In this document: one piece after another, positions 1 through 8,938 of the stretch
Numbering within the stretch: the first letter of the stretch is position 1
Layout of the letters: each line of letters starts with the position of its first letter
Origin: Bacteroidota bacterium
GTDB taxonomy: Bacteria; Bacteroidota; Ignavibacteria; Ignavibacteriales; Melioribacteraceae
NCBI GenBank assembly: GCA_023381535.1
Contig: JAMCSN010000076.1
Location: 435-10,845, forward strand
Reading direction: 5' to 3'
DNA length: 10,411 nucleotides
Notes under the pieces: generated by a model
What the model was told of the DNA's origin: nothing
What the model saw: the letters and a program-made list of their open reading frames with translations, nothing else
Databases searched by the model: none
Position numbers and translations under genes: made by a program

Positions 1-226
1 CAAGTCCCGGCTTTTCTCCACGAATCTTTGAGAGATGGTGCTGCGTTAATTTCATTAATCGACCAAATGCCGTAGCAGGCATTGTTGACGCGAATGAAAA
101 AAATCGTTCGCGGATACCAGCATTTAGATTTCCACCCGATGCATGGTATTGGATTGATTCCATAACTGCAAATATGCCTCCGCATGTGTAAGCAATGTTT
201 TTGTTTGTTTCATCATGTCCAGACAT
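1..226 (-). CDS. cas11c: Type I-C small subunit Cas11c, translated from inside cas8c (partial)
   Basis: In characterised type I-C systems the Cascade small subunit is not a separate gene. It is made from an internal start in the 3' part of cas8c and corresponds to the helical C-terminal domain of Cas8c. Here codon 456 of cas8c is an ATG at 226, preceded by AGGAGGT at 236-242 with a 9-nt spacer of AAAAAAATT. That is as good a ribosome-binding site as those of cas3 and cas5c, although it lies in the middle of a coding sequence. The product would begin MSGHDETNKNIAYTCGGIFA, followed by helical sequence; 75 residues are visible and the rest lies beyond the left edge. The start is seen directly. 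Translation of a separate product is inferred from the family precedent. Confidence 0.82.
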   Translation of the reverse strand, partial: MSGHDETNKNIAYTCGGIFAVMESIQYHASGGNLNAGIRERFFSFASTMPATAFGRLMKLTQHHLSKIRGEKPGL

Positions 227-1591
227 AATTTTTTTACCTCCTGATTGATTTGTTTTTCTATTAATGATCAGTTTCAAAAGTGCAATTCGTTCCGATGTTG
301 CATTGCCTTGCTCGGCTTTAATGCGATTAAGAACTGCACTCAAAATCCATAGTGGTGGTTGTGTTCCAAGTATTGCGCATTTCCATAATGCAGCACCTAT
401 TCTTCCATGTTGAACATCGTTCGTGCTTTTTCCTTTGGCTGCTTTTACCAACTCCCAAAAGCGGGGAAAAGTATAAACGATTTTACCTTGTTCTTTACTG
501 TACTCGCCGATTTCAATATCGCTAAACCATAAAGCAAGATTTTTGCGAAGATTACTTATGCTGGTTATGATCCAGTCGCGAATAGCAATTCTTGCTGCCG
601 AACCGCTGAGTATGATTGAATAAAAAATATCTTGATGAAGATTCTTAAGATGTTTTGCTTCACCGGATTCTATTCCTTTAATCATCTCTCGGATTTCGCC
701 TTCATCCGGTTTGTCCAGCATTTCTATTTCGGAGATTTCTACTGCATCTTGTAGCCAGAATACAACTGCTGTATCAGTTGAGATGTTTTTTCGATTCTTG
801 AATATTGGAATGGCTTTTCCTTTTTTCTCTTTTTGTTCCCATGAGCTTGGTGAGAGCAGCCAATTTAATGCATCAACATAAGCTCTTGCACAGTGTGTGC
901 ATATGGATGAATTTTCGTTCCATTTAAAACCATAAGATTCATATGCATTCTCGTTATAGGAAACAAGAGCACATCCGGCAGTTTGTCCATCAGGTACACG
1001 TTTTATCATTCCATGCGGAAGATCTGTTACTGCATATTCTGAAGAACCACAAATTGAACAAACGGGAAATCTTTTATTCTTCAATTCTTCCTGCAATGAT
1101 TTGTAGTTATCAATTATTGCTTTTCTGATTTCCTTATCCTCATGAAGACGTTTATTGCTTCCGTCAACTATGAAGGAAATATTTCCACCTCTTTGTTTCT
1201 CATCTACCTGTTTTAAAAATTCGGAGCGGGCTTTATTAATTCCGGCTTCTTTGTTGGTTTGGTAAAATGCCATTACAGGCGTAAGAGCGAATAATTGTGG
1301 GTAATTCGCAAGCTTTTCCATAAAGAGTTTATGTTTGGATTTTGGCTCCTTTCCGATATTTAAAATCTCTTCGGACCTATCTACCAATAATCTTGCCTTA
1401 CCTTTCTTTGCGGTAATTGCTTCGGTAATTGTTTCTACCGGTTCATGTACTATAAATTGTTTGAATTTTCCGTTATGACCAATAACCAAATCAATTGATG
1501 TTGGCACCTTGTCTAATGCATCGTGAATGTAAGTGCCTTTTAATTTGTTTTGCCTCAGGTTATTTGCCAGGGAAACAAGTTCTTGTATCAT
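1..1591 (-). CDS. cas8c: Type I-C Cascade large subunit Cas8c (Csd1), 3' end cut by window
   Basis: Cas8c is the large subunit of the type I-C crRNA-guided surveillance complex and takes part in PAM recognition and target DNA binding. About 530 codons are visible from the ATG at 1591; family members are usually somewhat longer, so only the C-terminal end should be missing. I recognise the family from three things: the N-terminal region around residues 65-95; a segment reading GSAARIAIRDW, which resembles the family's conserved NxARxxxRxW stretch; and a C-terminal region with AFGRLMKLTQHHLSK, typical of Csd1. Two CxxC pairs (C178/C181 and C231/C234) look like a zinc-binding site. The ATG overlaps the cas5c stop in an ATGA tetranucleotide, which implies translational coupling. 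The reading frame is intact to the window edge. An internal start for Cas11c lies at codon 456. Identity is secure from both sequence and operon position. Confidence 0.93.
   Translation of the reverse strand, partial: MIQELVSLANNLRQNKLKGTYIHDALDKVPTSIDLVIGHNGKFKQFIVHEPVETITEAITAKKGKARLLVDRSEEILNIGKEPKSKHKLFMEKLANYPQLFALTPVMAFYQTNKEAGINKARSEFLKQVDEKQRGGNISFIVDGSNKRLHEDKEIRKAIIDNYKSLQEELKNKRFPVCSICGSSEYAVTDLPHGMIKRVPDGQTAGCALVSYNENAYESYGFKWNENSSICTHCARAYVDALNWLLSPSSWEQKEKKGKAIPIFKNRKNISTDTAVVFWLQDAVEISEIEMLDKPDEGEIREMIKGIESGEAKHLKNLHQDIFYSIILSGSAARIAIRDWIITSISNLRKNLALWFSDIEIGEYSKEQGKIVYTFPRFWELVKAAKGKSTNDVQHGRIGAALWKCAILGTQPPLWILSAVLNRIKAEQGNATSERIALLKLIINRKTNQSGGKKIMSGHDETNKNIAYTCGGIFAVMESIQYHASGGNLNAGIRERFFSFASTMPATAFGRLMKLTQHHLSKIRGEKPGL
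236..242 (-). promoter_or_regulatory. Internal ribosome-binding site for Cas11c
   Basis: The minus strand reads AGGAGGT, nearly the full anti-Shine-Dalgarno complement. It lies 9 nt before the in-frame ATG at 226. It is encoded within the Ser-Gly-Gly-Lys codons of cas8c, where the glycine codons used (GGA, GGT) happen to spell the site. Confidence 0.8.
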
Positions 1592-2314: not shown

Positions 2315-4534
2315 TTAGAATACTGTTTCAACATCTTCCGGCGCTATTCCGAATTCTTGATCATATTTTCCAAGCCAAATCCTTAAACCGCTTTTGTGCT
2401 GTTCAATTTGACTCCCATATTTTTTCAAGAAGTTTGGATAAACCTGCACGCCGAACTGTTGGATTTTTCTATAAAGTTCTTTTGAAATGAATCCGCTGTT
2501 GTCGAAGAATTTTGTTACCTCTTCAAAAAGCTCCTTGCTTTCGTTAGAGTAAAAGGCAGCAAATAGAAGTGTTGTTTGTTTATCTATTATATGATACTGA
2601 TTGTTAACCGTTTTGAAATTGAACATCTCTCGTTCTTTCGTAATTTTATATCTATCTGGATCAACGAAAAATTCTATCACTTGTTCGTAATATCGTTCAA
2701 AAGATTCTGCATGATGAAGTATCTGGGGATCGTCTTTAATTATTCCTTTGGCAAATTCCGCACACGCACGGTAAGTTTTATCCGGCATTGGATGATCAGT
2801 CAGATCGAACAGAACAACTTTTCCTTTTTTCATTTTTCCATTTCTGTTACATCTTCCCGCAGCTTGTATCACAGAGTCGAGTGGAGCGATTGCACGATAA
2901 ACGCACGGGAAATCGAAATCAACTCCAGCTTCTACAAGTTGTGTTGAAACAACAGCAATTTTTCTTTTCGGCTTTGCAGAAAGCGCTGCAATTATTTTTT
3001 TAATTATCTTTTTCCTATGATGAGCACACATTGCTGTAGAAAGATGGAAATATTCGTCATGAGTACGGCCTTCTTTTATTTTTACAAAAAGTTTTTTGGC
3101 AACCGACTTTGTATTAACTACAGCTAAGTATGATGTTTTTTCTTTCAGTAATTGTTCAGCAACTATATCCAAACCGACCGGCTTCAGTTTCTTGATTAAT
3201 TTATATTCCACACGCTTTGTTACATCAAAGTATTTCATCGGATTTCCAATTAGACTAATTGTTTCTTCGATTCCGTCAAATCCTTCACGTTTGCCGAAAG
3301 CGGGCATTGTTGCGGTACAAAAGAGAAAAGATGTTTTTGAAACTTGGGAAATATTTTTAAGCATTATGATTGTTGGTTCAACAAGTTCTTTCGGTAAGGT
3401 TTGTACTTCATCGAAGATCACTACCGAGTTTGCAATGTTATGATTCTTTCTGCACTTGGAAGGTCTGTTGCTAAAGAGTGATTCGAAAAATTGTACAGCG
3501 GTGGTAATTATTATTGGCGCTTGCCAGTTCTCACATGCAAGTTGTTTAGGAGATAACTGTGTACTATCGAATGTTTCATTCGAGTATTCGTCATCACCTT
3601 CCATTATGCCTGAATGGTGTTCGAGTATGATTTCTTCACCGAAAATTTCTTTTAGGATAGTTGCCGTTTGGTCTATTATGTTTATGTAGGGAAGGACGAT
3701 AATGATACGTTTTAATTTATTTTCTTTTGCATGCAGCAGCGCCCAATGGATTGAAGTTAGCGTTTTACCTAATCCCGTTGGAAGCTGGATAGAAAAGAAT
3801 CCGGGAGGTTTTGAAAATTTATTTATTACATCAAGACGGGCTTCAGTCCTTAGCCTATTGATTTCTCTATCAATAGGTAACAATGTAAATATTTTTTCGA
3901 GCTGGTTTATCAATTCATCGTAATCAATTTCCGATTCCAAACGCGCTTGAGATTTTTCTGGCAGGAAGTGACGCTCCGTATCCAGCCAATCTGCGTCTGT
4001 TAGTGAACTGAATAGTAATCTTGTAAGACATTCTGTAAGTAAAAGGTTCTTTGAATATAACTGCGGAAGATCGGCTTCTTTGTTTTTGATCTCTGCCAGA
4101 TCATTATACAATCGTGTTATAAGTTCTTGGGCAAGTTCTTCGCTCTGCGCATAATTTTCATTATTGCTTCTTCTGTTTTCGTTATCGGGCAATCCTGCAT
4201 GATGACCCTGAATTGCAAATTGTAGCGGGATCAATTTGTTGAATAAAATTTTTGCAATATATGCACCAATCCCTGCATGAAAAGTTTTCTGTCCACCGTA
4301 TTCAATATAATTTTGAAAACCGTCTTGATATTTGCCTACATCATGTAAAATACCTGCTAGATAGAATAAGTTTGTCAGATCCTCGTCAGTTGCAAATGAA
4401 TGCGCTCTTACAGCAGTATTTTTTAAATGATCCTTTAAAAGATGTATCTCACCAAAATTATTTTTTGAATGCGCTACAAACTCTTTCATCTTTCCATTGT
4501 TACTTGGTTTATTGGTAATTTCTTCTTGATTCAT
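2315..4534 (-). CDS. cas3: Type I-C Cas3 helicase-nuclease with N-terminal HD domain
   Basis: Cas3 is recruited to target-bound Cascade, unwinds the DNA and degrades it. The protein has 739 residues, normal for a fused HD-helicase Cas3. The HD domain spans about 15-190: AHS at 21-23, HD at 64-65 in GILHDVGKY, His86, and HH at 111-112 in GHHAGLPD. The superfamily 2 helicase follows: Walker A LPTGLGKT at 251-258, motif II DEVQ at 375-378, motif III TAT at 407-409, motif V STQLVEAGVDF at 530-540, and motif VI QAAGRCNR at 557-564. All key residues are present. The Q in motif II is common in this Cas3 branch. The ATG at 4534 is chosen because GGAGGTG at 4543-4549 lies 8 nt upstream; an in-frame ATG at 4603 has no such site and would add 23 unconserved residues. 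It is the first gene of the cas operon. Confidence 0.96.
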   Translation of the reverse strand: MNQEEITNKPSNNGKMKEFVAHSKNNFGEIHLLKDHLKNTAVRAHSFATDEDLTNLFYLAGILHDVGKYQDGFQNYIEYGGQKTFHAGIGAYIAKILFNKLIPLQFAIQGHHAGLPDNENRRSNNENYAQSEELAQELITRLYNDLAEIKNKEADLPQLYSKNLLLTECLTRLLFSSLTDADWLDTERHFLPEKSQARLESEIDYDELINQLEKIFTLLPIDREINRLRTEARLDVINKFSKPPGFFSIQLPTGLGKTLTSIHWALLHAKENKLKRIIIVLPYINIIDQTATILKEIFGEEIILEHHSGIMEGDDEYSNETFDSTQLSPKQLACENWQAPIIITTAVQFFESLFSNRPSKCRKNHNIANSVVIFDEVQTLPKELVEPTIIMLKNISQVSKTSFLFCTATMPAFGKREGFDGIEETISLIGNPMKYFDVTKRVEYKLIKKLKPVGLDIVAEQLLKEKTSYLAVVNTKSVAKKLFVKIKEGRTHDEYFHLSTAMCAHHRKKIIKKIIAALSAKPKRKIAVVSTQLVEAGVDFDFPCVYRAIAPLDSVIQAAGRCNRNGKMKKGKVVLFDLTDHPMPDKTYRACAEFAKGIIKDDPQILHHAESFERYYEQVIEFFVDPDRYKITKEREMFNFKTVNNQYHIIDKQTTLLFAAFYSNESKELFEEVTKFFDNSGFISKELYRKIQQFGVQVYPNFLKKYGSQIEQHKSGLRIWLGKYDQEFGIAPEDVETVF

Positions 4535-4773
4535 TTTGCTTACACCTCCGGCACACAAGTCACAAATTTTTTGTTTAACTGAAAAGGAATTGATCTTATA
4601 CACAATCTATTCCCCCCGACTTATTCTATCGTCATCGGTGATTATTTAAGAGGCGTCTGCAGATGGAAGTAATCCCCGTATCTTTGTAGGAAGTTAATAA
4701 CCGTGCTAATAAACTGCAATCTGAATTTGTTTTCTTGTGCTGTTTTTGTAAAATCTCGGGGTGTTGCTATTGG

Positions 4774-4905: not shown

Positions 4906-4927
4906 TATATATCTCAAAACCGATATA
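4906..4927 (+). repeat. Left terminal inverted repeat of the hairpin-rich element
   Basis: This 22-bp arm pairs with 5155-5176, with a single mismatch at its seventh base (T here, C in the complement of the right arm). Weak similarity continues inward for about ten more bases. Confidence 0.8.
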
Positions 4928-4959
4928 GGAAATACAAGGGTAGAAAAATATAAACATGA

Positions 4960-5132: not shown

Positions 5133-5150
5133 AGAGAACATCTATTCTCT
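5133..5150. repeat. Short hairpin AGAGAA-6 nt-TTCTCT
   Basis: A perfect 6-bp stem with a 6-nt loop lies directly inside the right terminal inverted repeat. It is listed because it adds to the density of folds in the element; alone it would not be notable. Confidence 0.4.
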
Positions 5151-5154
5151 TTGC

Positions 5155-5176
5155 TATATCGGTTTTGAGGTATATA
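5155..5176 (-). repeat. Right terminal inverted repeat of the hairpin-rich element
   Basis: This is the inverted partner of 4906-4927, identical at 21 of 22 positions. It is followed by TAC and then unrelated sequence. Confidence 0.8.
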
Positions 5177-5283
5177 TACACTGTAAAAACGATCGTTAAA
5201 ACCATATGCTATCTGCAGAAATTAAGAACCCATACTTTATGAGAAGCCTCAAAGTCACTTCGAATCGGAACTCCTCCCCCTTT

Positions 5284-5316
5284 CAACTGCGCTCCAAATG
5301 CGCTTCAACTGCGCTT
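5284..5316. repeat. Three tandem copies of an 11-bp unit
   Basis: The copies read CAACTGCGCTC, CAAATGCGCTT and CAACTGCGCTT; a degraded fourth (CACTTCCGTAT) may follow. Copies one and three differ at one base. The tract lies about 65 bp before the start of the DUF6266-like gene and is the only notable structure in 5177-5379. Confidence 0.75.
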
Positions 5317-5379
5317 CACTTCCGTATCAAAACTGCATCAACTATACTTAATTCTCTATTAATTCAGCATTAATTCATA

Positions 5380-6036
5380 ATGGCATTTCGTAAAAATAAC
5401 CCACTTGGTCCGGTCTCTGGTAAGATAGGAGAAACTGTTTCAAGAATCAGATACGGCAAAGAAGTAGTTTATTCAAAACCGGCATCTTACCACATCAGCT
5501 ATTCGCCTTCTGCTGTTTCCGGAAGATCCAAATTTGCTAATGCAGTAAAACTTGCTGGATTGGTTAATTCAGTACCGGAATTATCTCTCGTTTGGAAAAT
5601 TGCAAAGATTAAAGGAACTAACTCTTACCAGAAAATCATTAAGCATAATACAAAATTGGTTTCGGATTATGGCTTAACTCTCAAAAACATCATTACACCC
5701 CCTTTGGCACTTGTTGAAGGGCATTCAATTACACTCGACGGAAACAAAATCATACTGGAATTTAAAGTTGATAAATCTTTCCCGAATCCTCCGCTAATCT
5801 TGTTAACTTTGATATCGTTTCAAAACGAAACCCAAAATGAAATGTTCATCGTTCGCTCTGACGAATTAGAAAAAATTGATAACGGTTATCTTAGGGGCGT
5901 TCTATCACTTTCCGCGGAGGCATTAGATAAAACTACCGGGCTCAACAACGCAATTCTCCTTTCAGCATTTCTTTCTGCTTCCGGAACTATATGTTGGTCC
6001 TCAACCATCCCTTTCGAACTGAACTTAAAACCGTAA
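5380..6036 (+). CDS. DUF6266-like protein of unknown function
   Basis: This is a 218-residue protein without a signal peptide or membrane segment. The N-terminal 60 residues follow the pattern I associate with DUF6266 and related Bacteroidota proteins: a Gly-rich GPVSGKIGETV stretch, a YGKEVVYSKPA block, then Ser-rich residues ahead of GRSKFANAVKLA. The remaining part alternates hydrophobic and polar residues like a beta-sandwich (for example KIILEFKVD and ILLTLISF), but I name no fold. The ATG at 5380 has no clear Shine-Dalgarno and sits in AT-rich sequence, common in Bacteroidota-type genes. It stands alone, with a repeat-rich region upstream and an M28 peptidase 131 bp downstream, so context gives no role. 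The family is thought to be widespread but uncharacterised. The gene looks intact; the family name is a judgement from memory of the motif. Confidence 0.75.
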   Translation: MAFRKNNPLGPVSGKIGETVSRIRYGKEVVYSKPASYHISYSPSAVSGRSKFANAVKLAGLVNSVPELSLVWKIAKIKGTNSYQKIIKHNTKLVSDYGLTLKNIITPPLALVEGHSITLDGNKIILEFKVDKSFPNPPLILLTLISFQNETQNEMFIVRSDELEKIDNGYLRGVLSLSAEALDKTTGLNNAILLSAFLSASGTICWSSTIPFELNLKP

Positions 6037-7663: not shown

Positions 7664-8899
7664 TTATCTTCTTTTCTCTGCGCTTCTTTCAGAACCTCTT
7701 TCTGATCGACCTTGACTTCGTTCAACATTTCTTTCGCTGCGCTCGCTTCTTGGTGAAGGTCTGTCATAATTCGGTTGTCTCTGCGGTTGTGCCATTCTTT
7801 CCGGCGCCTGAGGTCTTTCATTCGAACGCGGTCTCTCATAAACTTGCGGTCTTTCTCTCAAAACTTCCCTTTGAATCTGGTTGTTCTGTTGTCTTTCAAC
7901 TCTGTCCTGGTTACGAAGTTCATTTCTGTTGATAGCCGGATTCCTCTCGGCGTCACGCCTAACATTCATATCTCTGTTCGGAGTAACGCTTCGATCTCGA
8001 TTGTTAAATTGTTCGTTGCGAATATTTCCATCACGCTGATCTGATTCGCGGCTTATTCCTTGATCCATTCTTGTGACAATCTTATCTCTCTCAAGAGATG
8101 TTCTTCCGTTGCCTCTTTTTATTTCCAGATTACTCATATCCCTTCCGCTCGTTAACTCACGCTCGGATGGTCGGTAACTTACAATTCGATTTCCTTCATT
8201 CGAACGGTATTTTCCATAATCTCCGTAGTTGTCAACAGTACGAACATCTCTTTGAGCAATTCTGGAACCGGCTCTTCTTTCAACGAACGCTCTATCAACA
8301 CCGCCGTTAACAATTCTATCCCGGTCGTAGTAATAATTGTTTCTGTATCTGGTGTTGTCAAAAATTCTAGATGTTCGGTATTCATTAACGAGATAATAGT
8401 TTACTCTATGACCGCAGAAGTGACCGTAGTCCACAAAATTCCAATAGCGGTATTGCGATCTCCATCCGATAGAAAAATGAATTCCGAAATCGATGCTGAA
8501 AGATGCGTACGGAGGAAGCGGAGCCCATCCGATGTAGTCGTCGTTGTAACGCCATTCAACCCAAGCCGGTCCCCACTGATTATCGGGTACCCAAATCCAA
8601 CCGTAATAATTGTCGTAGTACCATCTTCCGTAGTGATATGTTGCCCAGCCAAACGGTTCATCGGAATCCCAGTACCATCCGTCATCGGTCCATGCCCAGC
8701 GACCAACGGAATACGGGCGCCATTGCGCGGCTGCTCTGAAAGGACGCCAGACAACCAAGTCGCCGTCGAGTTGAATCCATTCTCCATAAGGACGCAAAGC
8801 GCTGTAAAAGAAATTTATCGAAATCCCCGGGTCAGGTTTTGCATCTAATTGTAAAGTGAAGAAGAAGATTATTGCCGCAATAATTATTTTAGTTTTCAT
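7664..8899 (-). CDS. Exported tryptophan-rich DUF6600-type protein with disordered Arg-rich tail
   Basis: This 411-residue exported protein of unknown function has a signal peptide (about 1-20, MKTKIIIAAIIFFFTLQLDA). A W/Y/G-rich core follows at about 29-130, with repeated motifs such as RPYGEW, GRWAW, GWYWD, GRWYYDNYYGW, WGPAWVEWR and IGWAPLPP. This pattern is that of DUF6600 proteins, found in many Gram-negative envelopes. From about 180 on, the chain is rich in Arg, Asn, Gln, Glu and Ser. It ends in ERP and SER repeats without hydrophobic content, so it is probably disordered. The ATG at 8899 is chosen because AGGAGG lies 7 nt upstream and the signal peptide starts there; ten more in-frame codons upstream carry no signal. 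It faces the peptidase across the terminator and is divergent from the thioredoxin-fold gene. Confidence 0.85.
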   Translation of the reverse strand: MKTKIIIAAIIFFFTLQLDAKPDPGISINFFYSALRPYGEWIQLDGDLVVWRPFRAAAQWRPYSVGRWAWTDDGWYWDSDEPFGWATYHYGRWYYDNYYGWIWVPDNQWGPAWVEWRYNDDYIGWAPLPPYASFSIDFGIHFSIGWRSQYRYWNFVDYGHFCGHRVNYYLVNEYRTSRIFDNTRYRNNYYYDRDRIVNGGVDRAFVERRAGSRIAQRDVRTVDNYGDYGKYRSNEGNRIVSYRPSERELTSGRDMSNLEIKRGNGRTSLERDKIVTRMDQGISRESDQRDGNIRNEQFNNRDRSVTPNRDMNVRRDAERNPAINRNELRNQDRVERQQNNQIQREVLRERPQVYERPRSNERPQAPERMAQPQRQPNYDRPSPRSERSERNVERSQGRSERGSERSAEKRR

Positions 8900-8938
8900 G
8901 GCAGACCTCCTAATTAGTCCACTATTCACTACACAAGG

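Follow-up and report, generated by a model that had tools for sequence, protein, structure and literature searches.

The window, i.e. the whole 10,411-nt stretch of DNA analyzed here, carries three adjacent cas genes on its minus strand in the type I-C order cas3-cas5c-cas8c. The cas3 gene combines helicase and HD nuclease parts (2315–4534; TIGR01587 and TIGR01596 over cut-off) and most likely starts at ATG 4534, which we preferred to the GTG at 4603 given in the open reading frame list. It is followed by cas5c (1588–2298; TIGR01876 over cut-off), the stop of which overlaps the start of cas8c (csd1) as ATGA. The cas8c gene itself spans positions 2–1591 as 530 codons with no stop, the left window edge cutting the gene (PF09709 at E 2.8e-89, TIGR01863 over cut-off), and its Shine–Dalgarno (SD) motif, at 1598–1604 on the same strand, lies within the 3′ end of cas5c. 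The window thus ends before the 3′ end of cas8c and before the positions expected in type I-C for cas7, cas4, cas1, cas2, and a repeat array; cas7 comes next after cas8c in all 16 relatives’ loci inspected. In a Cas8c tree, the rows nearest the window (L001, L002, L097, and L008) are labelled or grouped as Ignavibacteria, except that L001 is labelled Bacteroidetes. For the M28 peptidase encoded on the contig, the closest relatives among those with an organism name, given for a minority of the 120 hits listed, belong to Ignavibacteriales. The host of the window is probably an Ignavibacteria bacterium. An Rfam search of the window at curated thresholds returned no match.

Inside cas8c, the sequence and its translation bear out the arrangement that the preliminary description had pointed to, namely an AGGAGGT motif (242–236, minus strand) separated by a 9-nt spacer from an in-frame ATG (226–224, minus strand) at codon 456, from which a small subunit, Cas11c, would be made. 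The window contains five combinations of the form AGGAGG-N(5–11)-ATG, where 0.31 would be expected, and 0 of 200 shuffles reach this number; the other four matches fall at cas8c, at cas5c (two overlapping), and at one non-cas gene. With SD strength taken as the predicted pairing energy to ACCUCCUUA (the 16S tail), the internal site reaches −11.6 kcal/mol, next to −12.0 for cas8c, −11.7 for cas5c (ATG 2298), and −10.8 for cas3 (ATG 4534); the earlier statement that this site is as strong as those of the upstream genes is therefore correct. Among the 10 in-frame ATGs of cas8c, only those at codons 1, 456, and 477 are preceded by a motif stronger than −5 kcal/mol.

Of the proposed Cas11c, the window contains the initial 75 codons (2–226, minus strand; the remainder lies beyond the window), and these match solved Cas11c chains. 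When the region past position 226 was compared with known Cas11c, as had been suggested, the 75 residues after the ATG proved homologous to these chains, with the best match to residues 2–68 of Neisseria lactamica 8g9s_H (E 5.9e-13) and further matches to residues 9–69 of Desulfovibrio vulgaris 7kha_K and residues 9–68 of 9jhb_B and 9jhc_A. The solved chains are 116–124 residues long, and the closest full-length relative of the window protein (P0002, 75% identical) has 583 aa, from which a length of ~128 aa is predicted for the Cas11c of the window. A small subunit could also come from a start at codon 477, where the motif is of GGAGG type and reaches −9.5 kcal/mol, or from proteolysis of Cas8c. 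Initiation at codon 477 would, however, remove the conserved AYxCG segment (from residue 467) that aligns with solved Cas11c, and the Met at this codon is mostly Leu in 32 aligned relatives, whereas the zone around codon 456 holds Met or Val in nearly all homologues (see below), so that we regard this pair of alternatives as very improbable.

Conservation was assessed in proteins and in DNA. The protein set consisted of the best 120 of the 837 homologues, the window’s own protein included, 119 of which contain the AYxCG anchor, and the start zone was defined as the 8–15 residues before this anchor. A Met or Val is present in the start zone of 118 of the 119 anchor-bearing homologues listed, and in 113 of the listed homologues the residues just upstream are able to encode GGAGG or AGGAG, whereas this is true of 24% of the 825 other Met positions in these proteins. 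For DNA, we used 71 genome loci and one viral locus (L072) related to the window, to which a Cas8c-family genome search contributed overlapping sets from the class of genome G001 (3 of 395 genomes) and the genus of this Prevotella genome (17 of 249), the class of G002, which holds L002, L008, and L001 (23 of 245), the class of G008 (2 of 119), and the families of G005 (2 of 43), the Prolixibacteraceae genome G010 (7 of 120), and G995 (8 of 140). From 120 loci, removal of one without a match and of nine identical repeats, and addition of the window, left 111, and nine more were dropped as repeats or for lack of the anchor region, giving 102 analyzed loci: 72 outside Bacteroidia, including the window, and 30 from Bacteroidia. 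In L056, the Cas8c match is split across two overlapping frames, so that the gene is either broken or misassembled in this locus, which was not counted.

Every one of the 72 loci outside Bacteroidia combines an in-frame ATG, GTG, or TTG located 8–15 codons ahead of the anchor with an SD at least as strong as −7 kcal/mol, a count that is biased upward by taking the better SD where a locus offered two start candidates, and one in which related loci are not independent. At the same threshold, 2.8–5.5% of in-frame ATGs within neighboring genes carry such a motif (four groups), and across 62 SD-bearing loci only 2 of 420 other in-frame cas8c ATGs equal the SD of the internal one.

A motif of this kind could be a by-product of coding, if a conserved KGG...M peptide in the linker of Cas8c happened to spell AGGAGG. 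Over the 81 SD-bearing loci (including 9 from Bacteroidia), the SD core does lie in frame 0 in most cases, mostly as K-G-G, yet it is found in all three frames (57, 14, and 10 loci in frames 0, 1, and 2), so that different peptides carry the motif depending on the lineage (KGG, KEI/KEN, KEE/KEG, and ERS), and the nucleotides are kept while the peptide varies. The start codon points the same way: in the other phyla, i.e. those outside both Ignavibacteria and Bacteroidia, the start column contains 28 Met and 9 Val, with all 9 Val encoded by GTG, whereas 4 of the 5 Val in the adjacent column are encoded by GTA or GTT, and both Val codons at the Ignavibacteria start column are again GTG. We relied on this count of Val by column because it is free of choice, and did not use the product of GTG shares (1.9e-8), for which the site had been chosen beforehand as a start codon.

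Codon choice within the motif is equally restricted. In 12 Ignavibacteria genes, the Lys column of the SD is 100% AAG and its Glu column 100% GAG, whereas 12 other conserved Lys columns of these genes have at most 40% AAG and 12 other conserved Glu columns at most 55% GAG. In the other phyla, a GG pair precedes the start in 43 of 49 loci, with GGA as its first Gly codon in 40 of them and GGG in the remaining 3, compared to a mean GGA share of 0.34. Synonymous-codon tests of single loci give weak signals (median p of 0.12 across 66 loci, below 0.05 in 14), which is the other point in favor of a by-product, and for this reason pooled and per-column tests were used; the window’s own p of 0.07 is not significant, and the statistical strength thus comes from the locus set. 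In the pooled test, with the null drawn from each gene’s codon usage, one representative per 70% cluster, and 3000 null sets, z was −6.0 for the other phyla (23 representatives) and −8.1 for Ignavibacteria with the window (18 representatives), and none of the 3000 null sets was as strong as the observed one in either group. Clustering at 50% left 4 representatives per group, with z of −2.4 and −3.4, respectively. A Fisher value of 4e-15 on the 102-locus set takes no account of kinship, and we base no claim on it. A by-product of coding is, on this evidence, almost certainly the wrong explanation. The expectation that SD and ATG would be conserved together beyond what codons require consequently holds outside Bacteroidia and fails within this class, where the same test gave no SD excess (z +1.5).

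Homology to Cas11c and conservation of the SD–ATG pair outside Bacteroidia together make a separately translated small subunit probable, as originally proposed. They also provide good support for counting the window cas8c, at the level of its sequence, among the known type I-C genes with an internal Cas11c. The general premise of an internal start of this kind in the type I-C systems examined to date agrees with passages of three reports (PMC7684278, PMC11899642, PMC10865793): cas8c of D. vulgaris is described with an internal ribosome-binding site (PMC7684278), cas11 of N. lactamica as embedded in cas8 (PMC10865793), and internal-start Cas11 is reported in types I-B, I-C, and I-D, with two Cas11 per I-C complex (PMC11899642). 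Cas11c of D. vulgaris and N. lactamica comes from the same gene and the same place, the solved chains aligning from window codon 459 or 465–466, and the window differs in being an Ignavibacteria-type contig with its own SD and a start at codon 456, the product of which is predicted. Cas11b and Cas11d (from cas8b and cas10d, types I-B and I-D) are likewise cases of two proteins per gene through in-frame internal initiation, although in other subtypes and with other large subunits, and an archaeal I-B case, from a host with few SDs, is described with a GGATG motif (both from passages of PMC11899642). For the window itself, Cas11c within cas8c is therefore an ordinary and already known arrangement, and Cas11c is presumably expressed in its organism.

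Within Bacteroidia, the internal ATG and its SD part ways. All 30 loci retain the ATG, but the SD is absent from 21 and GGAGG is retained in 9; four further loci (L181, L182, L183, and L188) also keep the ATG and have no SD, for totals of 34 of 34 with the ATG and 25 of 34 without the SD. Another four, L184–L187, were not counted because their linkers repeat those of earlier loci, and assignment to the class follows record labels or search groups, with L017, L025, and L041 labelled only Bacteroidota or Bacteroidetes. A Met is expected by chance in 0.13 of random 8-residue stretches of these proteins, and the internal ATG can hardly be there by chance. In the Cas8c tree of 106 rows, SD state changes seven times and all SD-less rows are Bacteroidia; sister pairs compared for host and SD state give ~3 for and 0 against an association, too few for significance. 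The 9 SD-bearing Bacteroidia loci sit in a single group of 12 rows, which also contains one spirochaete and the SD-less L043 and L047, and since these 9 of 30 keep GGAGG, the link to the host is a tendency rather than a law. Where the K-E-I peptide occurs, it is spelled AAA GAA ATT in L073, compared to AAG GAG ATH in Ignavibacteria loci. SD use at neighboring gene starts, which were taken crudely as the first ATG and include cas genes, amounts to 11% of 158 near SD-less sites and 20% of 76 near SD-bearing Bacteroidia sites; in Ignavibacteria the share is 42% (89 starts) and in the other phyla 46% (431 starts).

The 21 SD-less internal starts tested, out of the 25, have the features of SD-independent starts, i.e. 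no SD, a high A content, and weak folding. The weakness of their folding lies at a median 98th percentile within the gene, against the 43rd for other in-frame ATGs, and the upstream 20 nt are 57% A (97th percentile). Weak folding at the internal start is also seen in the other groups (80th–99th percentile), so that folding alone is not specific to SD-less starts, and A at −3, found in 11 of the 21, is not uniform. These starts resemble the SD-independent gene starts described in Prevotella bryantii, where reporters were insensitive to the SD and SD-less start regions are weakly folded (PMC3155529), and in Flavobacterium johnsoniae, where start regions favor A at −3 and −6 (PMC6847099), with the difference that the relevant passages of these papers concern gene starts, whereas the Cas11c start of Bacteroidia would sit inside a translated gene. 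Bacteroidia ribosomes have been reported to tuck away their anti-SD (PMC9976891). In the Cas11 literature on Bacteroidia, no title on SD-free Cas11 starts appeared among the matches listed, the search coverage excluding most subscription journals.

The absence of the SD from 25 of 34 Bacteroidia loci could also mean that Cas11c is made there without internal initiation, either from a separate gene or from an internal promoter giving a leaderless mRNA, or that it has been lost. The gap between cas8c and cas7 is 11–40 nt in all 16 loci inspected, too short a distance to accommodate a small gene there, and a Bacteroidetes-type promoter motif lies within 200 nt upstream in only 1 of 21 loci. Also at odds with these explanations are the ATG, kept in every one of the 34 loci, and a structure prediction for the product of L055, which is modelled as a Cas11c fold (pLDDT 87.8, TM 0.84 to 8dex_J). 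This set of explanations is thus unlikely, although clearly less so than those considered above for the loci outside Bacteroidia. The separate cas11 gene and the internal promoter were rejected or down-weighted on the cas7 gap in the 16 loci inspected and the 1 of 21 promoter count, and so, on the evidence given above, were the coding by-product and the codon 477 start.

Taken together, the reading we favor, with a probability of roughly 95%, is that this cas8c would encode both the full-length Cas8c and, from an SD-led internal in-frame ATG, a Cas11c of about 125–130 aa, and that the docking signal follows the host in related loci. From these comparisons, we infer translation of Cas11c in the window’s organism, as well as its stoichiometry and role. 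Ribosomes would dock on AGGAGGT in the cas8c message and initiate at codon 456, which would allow the small subunit to be produced in excess of Cas8c, and Cas11c would then lie along the belly of Cascade and stabilize the displaced DNA strand. In related I-C loci, the internal start codon is the constant element and the docking signal depends on the host, the start being SD-led in SD-using hosts such as Ignavibacteria and, in Bacteroidia, often SD-free with an A-rich and weakly folded approach.

The window contributes one more solid example of a hidden CRISPR subunit, and the locus set separates the start codon from the docking signal, with SD-led starts in SD-using hosts and often SD-free ones in Bacteroidia. 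This offers a natural setting in which to ask how ribosomes blind to the SD select a start within a gene under translation, and it cautions against relying on the SD either to call Cas11 in Bacteroidia or to dismiss it. Two results go beyond the known arrangement and deserve further work: host-linked loss of the internal SD, and retention of an SD where cas8c itself begins.

The second of these, an SD kept at the cas8c start in SD-poor hosts, is a separate puzzle. In Bacteroidia, cas8c starts in an ATGA overlap with the stop of the preceding gene in 27 of 30 loci and a few bases after it in the other 3, the upstream frame being identified as cas5c by profile in the window alone and inferred from place and length in other loci. 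The cas8c-start SD is found in 28 of the 30 loci, with a synonymous excess of z −8.7 that is uncorrected for kinship. It is present in 20 of the 21 loci without an internal SD, the exception being L074, and in L181, L182, L183, and L188, where the upstream frames end as ATGA, so that 24 of 25 Bacteroidia loci without an internal SD have a strong one at the cas8c start. Prevotella loci follow the same pattern, with an SD at 12 of 13 cas8c overlaps (z −5.0), and the single SD-less overlap is probably L055, in which the earlier of two ATGs had been used as the start. Among Prevotella controls, an SD occurs at 2 of 26 other ATGA overlaps (z +1.7) and at 1 of 52 close neighbors (z +2.3). In the 13 Prevotella cas5c genes, the two terminal Glu columns are 100% GAG, compared to 0–92% across 13 other conserved Glu columns, a spread that makes this per-column test weaker than the Ignavibacteria one. 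Listed by locus, the strong cas8c-start SD lies inside the 3′ end of the upstream gene in the SD-poor Bacteroidia L055, L061, L101–L115, L181–L183, and L188.

A single Bacteroidia gene thus seems, from its sequence, to carry an SD-led start for cas8c and an SD-free start inside it. The retained SD is most plainly read as serving re-initiation at the cas5c stop and most boldly as a switch tied to ribosome state, the mechanism being conjecture in either case. We put forward only tentatively, as something we consider possible but would not bet on, that Bacteroidia I-C loci combine a selected cas8c-start SD with an often SD-free Cas11c start on an A-rich, weakly folded stretch such that the ratio of Cas8c to Cas11c would be set by the state of the anti-SD (e.g. 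bS21 occupancy) or by SD-assisted re-initiation; the pattern of starts is observed, and the mechanism is conjectural. Phages encoding bS21 have been reported (PMC9723584), and if this proposal is true, such phages could alter bS21 occupancy and hence the ratio of Cas8c to Cas11c.

Three further features were noted elsewhere in the window. Upstream of cas3, a 32-nt inverted repeat with 88% complementarity (4906–4937 and 5145–5176) has its arms 207 nt apart, and the sequence between them, in which short palindromes are visible by eye, may be a small mobile element. On the minus strand, AGGAGGTCTGCCATG at 8897–8911 suggests ATG 8899 as the start of the DUF6600 gene instead of the listed GTG 8929. 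Finally, a 22-nt repeat is present in three overlapping copies with an 11-nt step at 5282–5325, ahead of an open reading frame at 5380.
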